Below are positions 3,593-14,172 of a stretch of 36,921 bases of DNA, in pieces. The position numbers and the translations under genes are program-made. Under the pieces are notes generated by a model. That model was not told the DNA's origin. It saw only the letters and a list, made by a program, of their open reading frames with translations, and ran no database searches. Location: assembly GCA_016209205.1 (NCBI GenBank), contig JACQWQ010000162.1, forward strand, positions 1 through 36,921, read 5' to 3'. Origin of the DNA: Chloroflexota bacterium. GTDB taxonomy: Bacteria; Chloroflexota; Anaerolineae; UBA4142; SHND01. How positions within the stretch are numbered: the stretch's first letter is position 1; the number at the start of each line of letters is the position of its first letter.

Positions 3593-3718
3593 GATTTGCG
3601 ATACGCGATTCGCGATTTGTCATCGCGTGCTCGCGATACGTGATTCGCGATTTGCCATCGCGTGCTCGCGATACGTGATTCGCGATTTGCCATCGCGTGC
3701 TCAGTGCTCAGCGAATAG
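3593..3718. repeat. Heptamer iterons, GATTCGC/GATTTGC family
   Basis: Eighteen successive 7-bp units can be laid out without a break (GATTTGC, GATACGC, GATTCGC, CATCGCG, TGCTCGC). They form a higher-order period of 35 bp, five heptads, repeated nearly three times. They lie directly upstream of the YgeY-like start codon. Confidence 0.85.
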
Positions 3719-3770
3719 AATTCGCCGCCTGAAAAAAGGTGAAATGCAAAGCATTGGAAAAACGCGTACG

Positions 3771-3959
3771 TCAAAAGATTTCGCTGTCCACCCAGCCCGC
3801 ACCATCCCAATCCTGCGTCATTTCAAATTCGGTTAAACGTGTTTTTGCCGCGTGGTGTTTCTTTTGATTCTTGATGTACTCGACGACGCGCTGGGCATTT
3901 TCTTCTGAGACCGATAGCACGCCGTATCCTTCGTCCAACCATTTCGTGCTTTCGTCCAT
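3771..3959 (-). pseudogene. C-terminal remnant of a REP-associated tyrosine transposase (RAYT, Y1_Tnp)
   Basis: A 62-residue frame carries the typical RAYT tail: EGYGVLSVSEENAQRVVEYIKNQKKHH, compare GYGAFSVSxSxxxxVxxYIxxQEEHH in the family. The N-terminal HUH/Y1 catalytic part is absent; upstream DNA is the palindromic repeat at 3961-4119. RAYTs are known to mobilise REP-type palindromes, so the neighbourhood fits a decayed transposase next to its repeats. It is not expected to be active. The last 15 residues do not resemble the family. Confidence 0.65.
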
Positions 3960-3960
3960 C

Positions 3961-4119
3961 AGAGATTCTTCACTCCGTTCAGAATGACATTCCCCGTTCA
4001 GAATGCCACTCCCCGTTCAGAATGCCACTCCCCGTTCAGAATGCCACTCCCCGTTCAGAATGACACGTCACGCGCGCCTGTCATTCTGAGGGAGCGCCTT
4101 TCGCGACCGAAGAATCTCT
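3961..4119. repeat. Palindromic TCATTCTGA element with a 19-bp tandem core
   Basis: The left arm at 3961-3989 (AGAGATTCTTCACTCCGTTC then AGAATGACA) and the right arm at 4079-4119 (TGTCATTCTGAGGGAGCG through GAAGAATCTCT) are imperfect inverted repeats. Between them a 19-bp unit, CCCCGTTCAGAATGCCACT, is repeated in tandem at 3992-4066 (three full copies and one partial). Confidence 0.85.
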
Positions 4120-4139
4120 ATCATCAAGCCACTCGGCGC

Positions 4140-4406
4140 TCAAATCTTGCAAGCCGGATTCACCGATTCAATCAGTGCAGTCTTCTTTGCGCGAAGCCAA
4201 CCTTTGATTTGCTTTTCCCGCGCAATGGCGGCATTCACGTCCGGATACGTTTCGTAATACACCAAGCGCGTCATATTGTATTTGGCGGTAAATCCCTGAA
4301 TCTGTTTCTGCTTATGCTCTGAAACGCGCCGCTCCAGATTATTTGTCACCCCGACATAAATTCGCCGTGACAAACTGCTCATAATGTAGACAAAATAGTT
4401 TTTCAT
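4140..4406 (-). CDS. GIY-YIG superfamily protein (UPF0213/YhbQ-like)
   Basis: Small single-domain GIY-YIG nuclease-fold protein of 88 residues. The N-terminus FVYIMSS...IYVGVTNNLERRVSEHK is the GIY-YIG core with its catalytic arginine, followed by FTAKYNMTRLVYYE and AREKQIKGWLRAKKTALIE, which complete the domain. Such stand-alone proteins are common and mostly uncharacterised; a DNA repair or nuclease role is inferred from the fold. The start is the ATG at 4406; the reading frame extends 12 bp further to a TTG. It sits between two palindromic repeat clusters. Confidence 0.85.
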   Translation of the reverse strand: MKNYFVYIMSSLSRRIYVGVTNNLERRVSEHKQKQIQGFTAKYNMTRLVYYETYPDVNAAIAREKQIKGWLRAKKTALIESVNPACKI

Positions 4407-4428
4407 GTTTGTGGGCAAAATCAGGGTT

Positions 4429-4717
4429 TGTCATGTTGAGCGGAGCGAAACATCTCTCCCTTCGCACACGACGCCCTGCGCGCAACAACACGCGCAGAGA
4501 TTCTTCACGCCGTTCAGAATGACACGCCGCCGTTCAGAATGACATCCCCCACGTCGCTTGTCATGTTGAGCGGAGCGAAACATCTCTCCCTTCGCACACG
4601 ACGCCCTGCGCGCAACAACACGCGCAGAGATTCTTCACGCCGTTCAGAACGACATCCCCCGTTCAGAATGACATCCCCCGCATTCCCAATGACATCCCCG
4701 TCCGGAGTGGCGATTCT
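4429..4717. repeat. Gene-free stretch: two 96-bp direct copies of an inverted-repeat element
   Basis: Copies at 4429-4524 and 4559-4654 differ at one base (4520/4650). Each starts TGTCATGTTGAGCGGAGCG and ends with the imperfect reverse complement (GAGATTCTTCACGCCGTTC, AGAATGACA). Extra half-units of the type CCGTTCAGAATGACA lie between and after them, up to about 4700. This is the same family as the element at 3961-4119. I see no gene here. Confidence 0.85.
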
Positions 4718-9808: not shown

Positions 9809-10869
9809 CCCGCACCTACTTTCATTACGCGCCGCACGCCCAGTCTCCAGTCTCTATACGCGCACAAGGCGCTATACTACTACGGATCTCCCCGCGCGCA
9901 TTGCCAACAACAACGCGTCTTGGTCCACCGGCAAGCGGTGCACGCGCACGCCGCACGCATTATAAATCGCGTTCGTGATCGCGGGCGTCGTGGGAATCGA
10001 AGAAATTTCGCCGACGCCTTTTGCGCCGTACGGTCCCGACGAAATTTCGTCTTCGACAAGGAACGAAACGATTTCAGGCGTGTGCTTGATACTGGGCATT
10101 TTATACTTGGCGAGAAGGTCTGTCCATACCCTGCCCCTTTCGACAATGAATTCTTCGGTCAGCGCGTTGCCGAGGCACATGATGATACCACCTTCGACCT
10201 GTCCTTGCAGCGCGAGCGGATTGAGCGCGCGCCCAATGTCTGTCGCCGTCACGATTTTCAAAACGTGCACCTCGCCCGTGTCCGTATTCAATTCAATCAA
10301 CGCGGCTTGCGCGGCGTACGAGAAACCAAAGTGCATGTCGCCTTCCACGCCGAGCGGTTGGGTTTCGGGCGCGACATATTCGTGCAAATAACGCGTGGGG
10401 CGATTTTCCTCGCGTGCTTTTTTCACCAATTCCGCGAATTCGATCCGCTGCCCATTGCGCGCAAAAGCACCGTGCTTTGGTGCTTCCACGTAACCATCTT
10501 TGAAGATTAATTCTTCCGGCGCAGCGTCGAGATATTCGCTCGCGGTCTCTGCCAAAATTTCGCGCATCCCTTTCGCCGCGTAACGCGCCGCGTTCCCCGT
10601 CACAAAGGTTTGACGCGACGCGGTCGTCGGTCCCCCGTCAGGCGTCAAATCGGTATCGCTCAATAGTACGCGCACGCGTTCGTACGGCAAACCCAATTCT
10701 TCCGCCGTAATCATCGCTAAAATCGTCGGCAAGCCCTGTCCGATTTCCGCCGCGCTCGTACGCACTTGAGCCGTTCCATCTTCAAACACTTCGACCTCTG
10801 CCGCGCTCTGGTCCGCCGCGCCGCCGCCGAGTCCGGTGTTTTTGAAAGCCGCCGCGAAACCCCAAGCTT

Positions 10870-10941
10870 GGATGTTGGATGTTGGATGTTGGATGGCGCG
10901 TCTTTTCCAACTTCTAACTTCCAACTTCTAACTTCCAATTC
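10870..10941. repeat. Heptad array breaking the Mo-subunit reading frame
   Basis: Plus-strand units GGATGTT (three copies and a variant), then a short spacer and CCAACTT, CTAACTT, CCAACTT, CTAACTT, CCAATTC. The two halves are partly inverted relative to each other. The reading frame of the molybdenum hydroxylase changes exactly here. Confidence 0.9.
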
Positions 10942-12202
10942 CACCAACCGAATACACTCTAGCAGTCCTGCGCTTTCGCGTACGATTTGTCCCGTGCTCG
11001 TCGTGCGGCCGATGGTCAACGCGTTTTTGCGGCGCAGTTCAAAGGGGTCAATGTTCAACTTGGGCGCGAGTTCGTCCATGTTCGATTCGACGGCAAAACA
11101 GGATTGTGTGACGCCGAAACCGCGAAACGCGCCCGCGGGCGGATTGTTAGTGTACATCGCGTAGCAATCAATTTTCACATTCGGAATGTTGTACGGACCC
11201 GCCGCGTGGGTCGCCGCGCGCGTCATCACTTTGTCGCCGAGCGAGGCGTACGCGCCCGAATCGCCGTAAATGGTTGCTTGCGACGCGATGAGCGTGCCGT
11301 CTCGTTTCGCGCCCGTTTTCACGCGAATGATCGTCGCGTGACGTTTCGGATGAAACAGCAAACTCTCGTGACGCGAGTACAACATTTTCACCGGACGCCC
11401 CGTCGCTTTTGCCAACAACGCGACGTGAATTTGCGCGGCAATGTCTTCTTTACCGCCAAAGCCGCCGCCGATGAGCGCGCCGCGCACGCGCACTTGCGCT
11501 TCGGGCACATCCAACGCCGCCGCGATTTGACGACGGTCCTCGTACGGAATTTGCGAGCCGACGATGACTTCGATACGTCCGTTTTCCAACACGCGCCCGA
11601 TAGAACATTCGGGTTCGAGAAACGCGTGTTCGTAAAACGGCGAATGATATTCATTTTCGACGATCACGTCCGCTTCGGCGAAACCTTTTTCCACATCGCC
11701 CTTTTCGACGTGAATGTGTTTCAGCAAATTGCCGTGCCCCGCGCCATCGTTCACAATAATCGTTTCGGGGTTCAACGCATCCACGGGATCGTCCACGACG
11801 GGCAGTTCCGCGTACTCGACGCTAATCAAATCCAACGCGCGCTGCGCGATTTCGCGCGTATCCGCCGCCACAAGTGCAACCGCGTCGCCTTGATACCGCA
11901 CCTTGTCGTAACACAACACAGGCCAGTCATTGAAAATCAAGCCGTGATTCTTGGACCCCGGCACATCCGCGTGCGTCAACACCGCGTGCACGCCGGGCAG
12001 TGCTTGGGCTTTTGACGTCTCAATGTTCAAAATTTTCGCGTGCGGATATTTTGCGCGCAGCGTCGCGCCCCACAGCATTTCGGGAAACGCATAATCGTCC
12101 GTGTATTTCGCCGCGCCCGTCACTTTGGCAACCGCATCCTGACGCGGCAAGGGTTTGCCAATCACATTCAAGGGCGTTTTCGTTTTCGGCAAGTTTGGAA
12201 TT

Positions 12203-12244
12203 CCCTCATTTCCCTCTCTGCCCTCTCTGCCCTCTCTGCCCTGA
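12203..12244. repeat. Nonamer iterons CCCTCTCTG inside the hydroxylase gene
   Basis: Three perfect and about one degenerate 9-bp units. Being a multiple of three they keep frame and encode GREGREGREGNEG between the 2Fe-2S and Mo-binding domains. Confidence 0.9.
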
Positions 12245-12449
12245 ATTTCCTTTGCCGCCGACTTGATCGCGTTCATGATCGAAACATAACAGCCGCAGCG
12301 ACAAAATGTATCTTTGAGCGCGACCTTGATGTCCTCGTCCGTTGGGTTCGGATTGTGATCGAGCAAATCTTTGCTCTGCATCAAAACGCCCGGCGTGCAG
12401 AATCCGCATTGCACCGCGCCTTGTTGAATGAATTGGGATTGTAATGGAT

Positions 12450-12522
12450 GTAGGGGCGCACCCTCGTGGTCGCCCGCCGCGTGGTCGCCCAATTCAGGGC
12501 GGGGACGAGCCACCGCCCCTAC
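12450..12522. repeat. 73-bp palindromic GTAGGGGCG element inside the 2Fe-2S coding region
   Basis: Begins GTAGGGGCG and ends with its reverse complement CGCCCCTAC, with GC-rich internal sequence containing GTGGTCGCCC twice. It lies in-frame where the family normally runs TIEGLA...LHPLQ. A shorter member of the same end sequence lies at 30354-30381. Confidence 0.85.
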
Positions 12523-12810
12523 GCGGTCGTCTTCTCTCCCATCCGTCCACGTGCCCGCCAAACCTTCAATCGTCAACACCGACGCGCCCTGCGCTTTCAG
12601 CGCGGGATAAATGCACGAGTCCACCGACATGCCATTGACGAGCACAGTACATGCGCCGCATTCCGCTTCATCGCAGCCGATTTTGGTGCCGGTCAAACCG
12701 AGTCTATAGCGCAGCACCGACGCGAGATATTCGTTCGATTCGATTTCCACCGCAACCGGTTTGCCGTTGACCGACATGTTCAACATCGGCATGGTTCAAT
12801 CTCCAATTCA

Positions 12811-12959
12811 AGGTAAACAGGTAGACAAGAAAACAAGTAGACCCGCTACCTGTTTCCCTGTTTCCCTGTTTCCCCGTCTCCCTACTTACCTGTTTCCCTG
12901 TTTCCCTGTTTCCCTGTTTCCCTACTTACCTGTTTCCCTCTTTCCCTGCTTCCTTGTCT
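12811..12959. repeat. Octamer iterons CCCTGTTT with an opposed block
   Basis: Fourteen 8-bp units (ACCTGTTT, CCCTGTTT, CCCTACTT) run from 12848 to 12959; opposed units (AGGTAAAC, AGGTAGAC, AAGTAGAC) occupy 12811-12842. They fill the gap between the FAD subunit and the 2Fe-2S/Mo subunit. A decayed second copy lies at 16446-16540. Confidence 0.85.
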
Positions 12960-12963
12960 CCCC

Positions 12964-13947
12964 TTACACCACCGCGCGTTCCATCGCCGCGCGCAGTGTT
13001 TGTTTCAGCAGCGTCGGCAGCAATTCAAAACGATATTCTTTCGTCGCGCGGTGCGCAGAGGTGCGCGGCTGCGCTTCGTTCACCAAAATTTGCGCGGCTT
13101 GTTGTAACACCGTGTCGTCCAAAATTTTCCCGCGCAAGAATCCTTCCGTCCGTTTCGCGCGAAACGGAATCGGTGCGACCGGACCCGCGCTAATCGCGAC
13201 ATGCTCCAGTCTCCGGTCTCTAGTCTCCACTCTCACCGCCATACCGAGAATCGGCAGCGCCACGCCTTGCGGACGCATCACGCGCGCGAACGCGCTGCCC
13301 TCCCCCGCGCCCAGCGGACGAAAGCGGATCGCCGTAATCAATTCGCGCGTCGAATCCACCGCGCTCTTTCCCGGACCTTTGAACAATGTCGAAAGCGCAT
13401 ACCACTGATTACTGACCACTGATGACTGATTACTGACCACTGATGACTGGTTACTGACCACTGATGACTGGTTACTGACCACTGATAACTGATAACTGCT
13501 TACTTCTACCTCCGCGTCCATCGCCATCAACGCGACGGTGCCATCCGCGGCGGGTAGCGCGTGCGCGATATTGCCGCACAACGTCGCCACATTCCGCACT
13601 TGCGGTCCGCCGATCACCGCGCACGCTTCGGCGAGCGCGGTCGCGCGTTTTCGAATCAAACGCGACTCGACGATTTGCGTGTGCGTGACGCCGCAGCCAA
13701 TGACGATCCATTCGCTTTGCTCAGGACAAGCTCCATCTTGTTTGTGAATTTGATTTGCGCCCGCGATGCGCGTCACGTCCACCAGCGCGTCGTAATGGGG
13801 GCGCTCCCCGGCATAGTATTCCGCCTGCGCGTCCACCAACAAATCGGTGCCGCCCGCGACCACGCGCGCGCGTCCGTCATATTGCGCCAAAAGTTCCAGC
13901 GCTTCATTCACCGTCATCGGCAAATGATAATGGTCAAAAAATTTCAT
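12964..13947 (-). CDS. Molybdenum hydroxylase FAD-binding subunit (CoxM/XdhB/YgfM-like)
   Basis: FAD domain that passes electrons from the 2Fe-2S clusters to the final acceptor. Visible: KFFDHYHLPMTVNEALELLAQY at the start, the FAD pyrophosphate loop VVAGGTDLLVD, IGGPQVRNVATLCGNIAHALPAADG, and the C-terminal CODH FAD domain (RMxRPQGVALPILG, SAGPVAPIPFRA). The start is the ATG at 13947. The coding sequence carries 13 heptads (13404-13494) giving a SVVSNQS-type repeat of about 30 residues in frame after EVEVSS, GTCTCCA heptads near 13203-13237, and a short QDGACPEQSE insert. The frame stays open, so a working protein with surface insertions is possible. It precedes the fused 2Fe-2S/Mo gene. Confidence 0.85.
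   Translation of the reverse strand: MKFFDHYHLPMTVNEALELLAQYDGRARVVAGGTDLLVDAQAEYYAGERPHYDALVDVTRIAGANQIHKQDGACPEQSEWIVIGCGVTHTQIVESRLIRKRATALAEACAVIGGPQVRNVATLCGNIAHALPAADGTVALMAMDAEVEVSSYQLSVVSNQSSVVSNQSSVVSNQSSVVSNQWYALSTLFKGPGKSAVDSTRELITAIRFRPLGAGEGSAFARVMRPQGVALPILGMAVRVETRDRRLEHVAISAGPVAPIPFRAKRTEGFLRGKILDDTVLQQAAQILVNEAQPRTSAHRATKEYRFELLPTLLKQTLRAAMERAVV
13404..13494. repeat. Thirteen ACTGATx/ACTGACC heptads inside the FAD-subunit gene
   Basis: Perfect 7-bp register: ACTGATT, ACTGACC, ACTGATG, ACTGGTT and so on, with a 21-bp higher-order period. The reading frame through it is open and repeats SVVSNQS. The same heptad family recurs at 19240-19288. Confidence 0.9.
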
Positions 13948-14172
13948 CTTGAGAAAACGCCCTCTGCAGCGGAGCAAAACTCTTGCGCGGGCAGTGCTTC
14001 GCTCGGCGACGCGAGATTGTGGAAACGGATCAATGGCACTTTTCGAGCGGGGATGCCCGACGCCGATGCAGTGTTCCCAACTGCAACGACCATTGATCGA
14101 AGTAGGATTATTTTAACACAGATGAGCAAGTTGAATCATTTCGCGAATCGCATATCGCGTATCGCTCGTCGC
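13948..14172 (-). promoter_or_regulatory. Leader of the molybdenum hydroxylase genes with a candidate extended -10
   Basis: This is the left part of a 313-bp gene-free stretch. On the minus strand TGTTAAAAT (14110-14118) reads as an extended -10 (TG-N-TAAAAT); no good -35 is visible. It would give an untranslated leader of about 155 nt before the ATG at 13947. I find no known riboswitch in that leader, and no clear coding potential. Confidence 0.35.

Follow-up and report, generated by a model that had tools for sequence, protein, structure and literature searches.

Organization of the molybdenum hydroxylase locus

The window, that is, the whole stretch of DNA analysed (36,921 nt), is one whole contig of a draft Chloroflexota genome (6.38 Mb, 279 contigs). 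It carries a molybdenum hydroxylase gene of the xanthine dehydrogenase family with a complete domain set (Fer2, Fer2_2, Ald_Xan_dh_C, MoCoBD_1 and MoCoBD_2), which is distributed over two ORFs, A and B. The features of the locus are listed below.

10717..12792, minus strand: ORF A, Fer2 - Fer2_2 - Ald_Xan_dh_C - MoCoBD_1, a fused xanthine-dehydrogenase-type molybdenum hydroxylase (ORF list, Pfam profile search)
9872..10924, minus strand: ORF B, the MoCoBD_2 part, in a frame other than that of ORF A (ORF list, Pfam profile search)
11020..11730, minus strand: MoCoBD_1 domain, residues 355-591 of ORF A (profile match)
10076..10897, minus strand: MoCoBD_2 domain, residues 10-283 of ORF B (profile match)
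10868..10938, minus strand: interdomain linker, a heptad hairpin of 71 nt, 2 mod 3 (alignment to homologues)
10905..10938, minus strand: left arm of the hairpin (5' in the mRNA), TTGGAAG and TTAGAAG units in alternation (sequence, TRF)
10868..10895, minus strand: right arm of the hairpin, four perfect CATCCAA units (sequence, TRF)
12212..12242, minus strand: in-frame array of 9-nt units in the Fer2_2 / Ald_Xan_dh_C linker (TRF)
12849..12962, minus strand: octad array separating the FAD gene from ORF A (TRF)
12964..13977, minus strand: FAD-binding subunit gene, upstream of ORF A and co-directional with it (ORF list, profile match)
13204..13234, minus strand: short in-frame heptad array within the C-terminal domain of the FAD subunit (TRF)
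13403..13498, minus strand: in-frame heptad array in the FAD_binding_5 / CO_deh_flav_C linker of the FAD subunit (TRF, profile match, frame test)

The two ORFs overlap by 208 nt. The final ~70 codons of ORF A, from the hairpin onward, lie outside the homologous frame, and the MoCoBD_2 match in ORF B is nearly complete (profile positions 14-283 of 283). In the nine best matches from other genomes, the homologous gene is a single open frame of 934-1045 codons. Both halves matched xanthine-dehydrogenase-family models of NCBIfam, all below cut-off and with TIGR03311 as the best; no equivalog passing its cut-off was listed for either half, hence no substrate is named. By eye, the Fer2/Fer2_2 linker (window 12444-12545) holds an in-frame inverted repeat of the GGGGCG type, another kind of linker filling. 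Other kinds of repeat occupy window positions 3598-4699, where 35-bp units number three and 19-bp units (CCGTTCAGAATGCCACTCC) form several clusters.

The reading frame changes at a heptad hairpin

An earlier note on this DNA had placed a heptad array at 10870-10941 and proposed that the frame changes exactly at the heptads, between well-preserved flanking motifs. The frame change was borne out: ORF A and ORF B are in different frames, and 71 nt (10868-10938), or 2 mod 3, separate the final homologous codon before the break (SAGLLECIRLVE) from the first one after it (AWGFAAAFKNTG). Both motifs were found as well, GGGFGGKED before the linker and GAKGVGE after it. The heptads themselves were confirmed, with the corrections that the linker proper spans 10868-10938 and that the two arrays are the two arms of one imperfect hairpin.

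TRF reported TTGGATG ×4.0 with 100% match at 10868-10895 and TTCCAAC ×5.7 with 84% match at 10905-10943; the stretch 10905-10938 was also reported as a 14-mer, TTCCAACTTCTAAC, with 100% match. The linker thus runs from the left arm of TTGGAAG/TTAGAAG units through a short spacer to the right arm of four CATCCAA units, and RNA folding gave an imperfect hairpin of -20.2 kcal/mol. When a 92-nt stretch (the 71-nt linker plus 21 nt of the preceding helix) was compared with mononucleotide shuffles, its lag-7 self-identity reached z = 7.8, indicating that the heptad periodicity of this stretch is not due to chance. The folding energy of the same stretch was moderately below that of the shuffles (z = -2.1), and this moderate value reflects arm divergence, one base in each heptad having come to differ between the two arms.

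Both halves are under purifying selection

Purifying selection acts on both halves of the gene to the same degree as in members of the same genus. Between the window and five genus mates, dN/dS was 0.079-0.157 (first part) and 0.050-0.104 (second part), compared with 0.053-0.162 and 0.035-0.133, respectively, among the genus mates. In relative-rate tests, changes seen in the window alone were not in excess in the second half (p = 0.12-1.00, 15 comparisons). For the first half p ranged from 0.03 to 1.00, the two lowest values reflecting fewer window-only than G001-only changes. Furthermore, the window differed at 2 of the 196 second-half columns that are invariant in eight relatives, and relatives treated in the same leave-one-out manner differed at 0-13. 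The break is therefore recent, bypassed, polymorphic or a consensus error rather than old decay, in agreement with the argument that the earlier note had drawn from the preserved flanks.

Heptad and octad arrays recur at the same linker in relatives

The linker was compared across the 80 best of 145 relatives, including a few titled outside Chloroflexota (e.g., Kiritimatiellae, PVC group, Bacteroidetes and Pleurocapsa) that were retained; the order-level genome set comprised 20 genomes. A first measurement of the linker (71 nt in the window) and of hairpins took in 15 of 37 loci. In the full set, 117 rows were reduced to 104 distinct linkers, with own-genome loci L001-L008 and L118 excluded. 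Linker length was divisible by 3 in 103 of the 104, the window being the sole exception. Periodicity at lag 7 or lag 8 (z ≥ 4) was detected in 11 of the 104 linkers, window included, and in 1 case for six control lags combined. Seven of these 11 periodic linkers also folded as hairpins (z ≤ -3), the exceptions being the window (-2.1), L011, L067 and L074.

The units differ between species. GGAGACT-type units occupy the linker in G005 and G003, an octad occupies it in G006, and GGAGATT/GGGGATC-type hairpins are present in L071, L077 and L112. G002 carries an AAATCGA array, called by TRF with a periodicity below z = 4, and TRF called no 7- or 8-nt array at the linker in G001 or G004. The closest match, G009 (76% protein identity), belongs to another family of the order and has the same hairpin as the window. 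The left parts are 38 nt each and identical at 35/38 positions; the right part measures 40 nt in G009 and 33 nt in the window, a difference of one heptad. The homologous hairpin thus has exactly one more heptad, located in its right arm; this makes a change in unit number, as put forward in the earlier note, a credible cause of the break.

A hand count of 25 sites with 7-, 8- or 14-nt arrays showed that the frame is kept on both sides at 24, again with the window as the exception. These sites came from nine homologous loci (the own genome, five genus genomes and three order genomes) and comprised linkers of the hydroxylase and of the FAD subunit, plus the place within the FAD C-terminal domain. 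The binomial probability against one third is ~6e-11, a value to be read with the relatedness of the genomes in mind, as the sites are not independent. In addition, among the 78 of 80 homologues that have all four pieces in order, 21 arrays of the 7/8-nt type were located in 14.6 kb of three linkers versus 5 in 206.9 kb of domain sequence; L041 was counted twice, for two arms of one hairpin. Four of the five domain arrays lie in MoCoBD_2 of homologues L067, L071, L074 and L077.

Paralogues within the own genome were compared at the equivalent MoCoBD_1/MoCoBD_2 junction for L002, L005, L006 and L007, leaving out L003, L004 and L008. AAGGATG and CATCAGT heptads are present in frame in L005 and L006, respectively, and no heptads were seen by eye at this junction in L002 and L007. 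The interdomain linkers of this gene are therefore a recurrent site of heptad and octad arrays, with units that differ between species and between paralogues of one genome. In another paralogue, L004, a heptad-like peptide repeat was noticed by eye in the MoCoBD_2 half.

The heptads are dispersed through the genome

A 382-kb sample of the own genome (G000) yielded 80 period-7 TRF rows, whereas a single first-order Markov control yielded 0; after merging, arrays of the 7/8-type periods numbered 108 in the sample. These tandem heptads are both dispersed and strongly over-represented, as is expected of heptanucleotide repeats of the STRR type. The codon-score frame test covered 105 of the 108 arrays, three being too close to contig ends. 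Open coding-like sequence on both sides in the same strand was found for 20 of the 105, 15 in frame and 5 out of frame. On inspection, 3 of the 15 in-frame and 4 of the 5 out-of-frame arrays appeared to be gene boundaries, leaving 12 in frame, plus the window. The four other out-of-frame arrays, considered as further broken genes, were judged to be boundaries from ORF ends and starts; at L140:2317 and L143:1181 this reading is backed by the presence of known genes to one side of the array or to both, whereas at the two L129 arrays it follows from the ORF limits.

Ten of the 12 in-frame arrays have units of 7, 8 or 14 nt; the other two have units of 21 or 24 nt, with which no frame shift is possible. 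Pfam matches flank or surround the array in 10 of the 12 ORFs, including MutL, a P-type ATPase, an ABC protein and an amidohydrolase (L129:7402 had no match on one side, and L127:623 was left out of this search). In this sample, the arrays of the P-type ATPase, the FAD subunit and the amidohydrolase lie within a domain match, and linkers are therefore not the sole location. In the MutL of the own genome, an in-frame octad array (L127:6870-6901) is situated in the DNA_mis_repair / MutL_C linker; an unstable linker in this mismatch-repair gene could bear on repeat stability.

Four heptad patterns were counted as overlapping matches in nine genomes. GGAAGTT was found 103 times in G000, 4 times in G009, 3 times in G002 and twice in G006, with 0 in five genomes and 0-3 in the five genus mates. 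GGAGACT occurred 95 times in G005, 42 in G003, 17 in G000 and once in G004 (five genomes, 0). AAATCRA was more widely spread (G003, 43; G001, 38; G004, 32; G002, 19; G006, 18; G009, 11; G005, 10; G000, 6; G017, 0), and TTGGATG was found in G002 (23) and G000 (22), with 0 in seven genomes. Control patterns read backwards gave 0 matches, save 4 in G006 for the GGAGACT pattern. The linker heptad is clearly the commonest of the four patterns in G000 and G005. G003 shows a tie (GGAGACT 42 vs. AAATCRA 43), and in G002 TTGGATG (23) exceeds the AAATCRA of the linker (19), which is the commonest among just three of the four patterns. Two of the 4 exact GGAAGTT matches in G009 are in the hydroxylase linker, and looser DNA matches there number at least 32.

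A DNA search with the window linker gave at least 155 matches; among the matches listed, at least 109 were in G000, at least 32 in G009 and at least 13 in G006, with G005 and G003 contributing 1 apiece. Twenty stretches were taken for their length of match, and 20 places were read in 19 of them, L175 being excluded. All 20 places (13 in G000 and 7 in G009), judged by reading and with no shuffle control, consist of two heptad arms around a short variable spacer. A spanning ORF of more than 150 codons was present at 2 of the 13 hairpin places in G000 and 2 of the 7 in G009. By eye, the hairpins of L158 and L171 adjoin the ends of putative tRNA genes.

The linker coincides with a chain break in nicotinate dehydrogenase

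The protein of G009 (L040) was modelled with AlphaFold from an alignment of 40 proteins drawn from 65 reference stretches, giving a mean pLDDT of 89.7. In the model, the heptad-encoded stretch (~residues 587-612) takes in the end of a helix (578-599) and a loop (600-607). This loop is one of three segments with pLDDT < 50 and marks the 10-residue block with the lowest score in the model. Among solved structures, aldehyde oxidoreductase 1sij ranked first by sequence. In the two-chain nicotinate dehydrogenase 3hrd, chain A matches L040 178-585 and chain B matches L040 624-933, indicating that nicotinate dehydrogenase is divided at this linker. NdhL and NdhM are described as the two molybdenum-binding subunits of that enzyme (PMC10331938).

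A change in unit number as the probable cause of the frame break

We consider it probable that the array belongs to a dispersed heptad-hairpin family found in linkers and that a recent change in unit number put the gene out of frame, most likely inactivating it. The array would be one copy of a repeat family able to occupy interdomain linkers in these Anaerolineae. Heptad hairpins are probably unstable at replication and would vary in unit number, and replication slippage or misalignment of the hairpin would add or remove heptad units. Since 7 is not divisible by 3, only frame-keeping lengths would persist where the protein is needed, and selection in coding linkers may thus retain lengths that preserve the frame. 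The window would then represent a recent change in unit number, most simply a right arm one heptad shorter than the form seen in G009, and the out-of-frame hydroxylase gene is most likely inactive in the cells behind the assembled consensus. The direction and recency of the change are suggested by a comparison with G009, a member of another family, the genus mates carrying other heptads or none at this linker. The perfect four-unit right arm, built from a variant unit, may be a sign of recent homogenisation.

Over longer times, the heptad type of a linker may be exchanged for heptads current in the same genome by copying between loci. In this small set, the linker unit differs by species and in some belongs to a genome-wide family, which suggests such copying. 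Against it stand the tie in G003, the TTGGATG of G002, which is as common as AAATCRA, and the linkers of G004 and G001, at which no 7- or 8-nt array was called. A broader and more tentative possibility, which we regard as rather doubtful, is a mobile or self-copying heptad-hairpin system in Anaerolineae, in which the current heptads of a genome are copied time and again into the interdomain linkers of its enzymes and replace the earlier sequence in frame; the window would then show the out-of-frame cost and perhaps, in the making, an enzyme of two chains as in nicotinate dehydrogenase. If this were true, linker peptides would turn over with the repeat repertoire of the genome.

Alternative explanations

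An assembly or consensus error is unlikely. The gene would then truly be in frame, a heptad having been dropped or mis-joined among near-identical arrays in a draft MAG. The genome is indeed a draft in 279 contigs, both halves look fully selected and the other 103 linkers are in frame; moreover, among the matches listed, three elsewhere in the own genome are exact copies of the first 34 nt of the linker, which leaves a wrong path open to a short-k assembler. However, the hairpin measures 71 nt and ordinary reads are longer than this, and the other listed own-genome matches over most of the hairpin have at most 81% identity. Longer arrays in the window (96 and 116 nt) were assembled, the 96-nt one in frame.

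The earlier note had also raised a phase switch, in which frequent and reversible changes in heptad number would toggle the hydroxylase in the population. This reading is improbable. As in genes that are phase-variable through simple sequence repeats (SSRs), the unit is not a multiple of 3 and unit number sets the frame (2 mod 3 in the window, 0 mod 3 in the 103 others); the right arm is perfect, like active arrays, both halves are conserved and the unit number is one off that of G009. However, four perfect units are few for a hypermutable tract, the same site in relatives is in frame with other heptads or none, and the 12 other in-ORF arrays of the own-genome sample are in frame, a poor fit to a switch. 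The same broken length in related strains, which the earlier note had named as evidence against its proposal, did not appear, as the 103 other linkers are frame-keeping; nor, because genus mates bear other heptads or no array, are these relatives alternative states of one switch. A single shared array switching between relatives was ruled out on the same grounds.

A working split enzyme, with MoCoBD_1 and MoCoBD_2 made as two chains, appears quite unlikely. The first ATG, GTG or TTG past the TAG of frame B (10930) is TTG 10924, within the left arm, and ORF B would start there behind the purine-rich heptad element GGAAG, with seven bases in between. The linker tolerates a chain break in nicotinate dehydrogenase, where it separates two molybdenum-binding subunits, so a split enzyme is possible, and selection on both halves would fit it. 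On the other hand, TTG is a weak start codon, the ORFs overlap by 208 nt without a coupling stop near the start, and all 103 other distinct linkers are in one frame.

An old pseudogene is very hard to reconcile with the data despite the broken frame, since no relaxation past the lesion was seen in dN/dS, relative rates or invariant columns. The least credible explanation is a programmed -1 frameshift at the spacer sequence GGA AAA GAC: the 71 nt require a net -1 and an A_AAA tetramer follows a purine-rich stretch, by analogy with dnaX-type frameshift signals, but the sequence does not conform to X XXY YYZ, the hairpin is barred from stimulating from downstream because its 5' arm precedes the site, and G009 shares GGAAAAGA yet requires no shift.

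Significance and comparison with known systems

One expects repeats to stay out of coding sequence when their unit length is not divisible by three, and here they prefer the linkers of a large enzyme at frame-keeping lengths. The variety of units at one site across related species and paralogues constitutes a natural experiment on the spread and purging of short repeats and on linker evolution. It also allows a test of whether a linker array can serve as a switch or divide an enzyme in two. Heptad hairpins in Chloroflexota protein linkers were not found in the open-access literature, as judged by titles and the starts of abstracts; by the same measure, none of the open-access literature on heptad repeats (Chloroflexi, Anaerolineae, cyanobacteria) concerned Chloroflexota heptads.

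In the phase variation of Haemophilus and Neisseria, a simple-sequence-repeat unit shifts the frame. A frame-shifting unit is shared with the window, whereas here the units are few, the gene is not a surface gene and a single length was assembled. Nicotinate dehydrogenase has its molybdenum subunit split at the same linker into separate genes (NdhL/NdhM), whereas the window shows a frame break in overlapping ORFs.

Heptad hairpins occupy 20 places in G000 and G009, and heptad arrays, hairpin or not, lie in frame in unrelated genes. Rickettsia palindromic elements are described as palindromes in frame inside unrelated protein genes (PMC10969869). Those elements are ~150 bp long with a conserved peptide, whereas the heptad hairpins measure ~60-75 nt with variable spacers and units. 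A defined element of that size with a conserved peptide was not seen here, the matches read being 59-74 nt long with differing spacers and units.

The TAACTGA heptamer repeats of Beggiatoaceae, cyanobacteria and Bacteroidetes are dispersed, some of them within ORFs and mostly at protein peripheries, and their author muses on a repeat splitting one protein in two (PMC4679880). They consist of one unit in mainly intergenic direct repeats, in contrast to the many units, hairpins and interdomain linkers of the Anaerolineae.

The nearest parallel is the P6b element of the Nostoc tRNA-Leu(UAA) group I intron, a stem of 7-nt repeats with one of two unit classes per sequence, for which repeated independent class shifts are reported, together with a type of indel that affects one side of the stem by one heptad (PMC4476775). 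Both systems have a stem built of heptads and a one-sided difference of a single heptad, as between the window and G009. P6b resides in intron RNA, where the frame is irrelevant, whereas the hairpin of the window lies in a protein-coding linker that has frame-keeping lengths in relatives.
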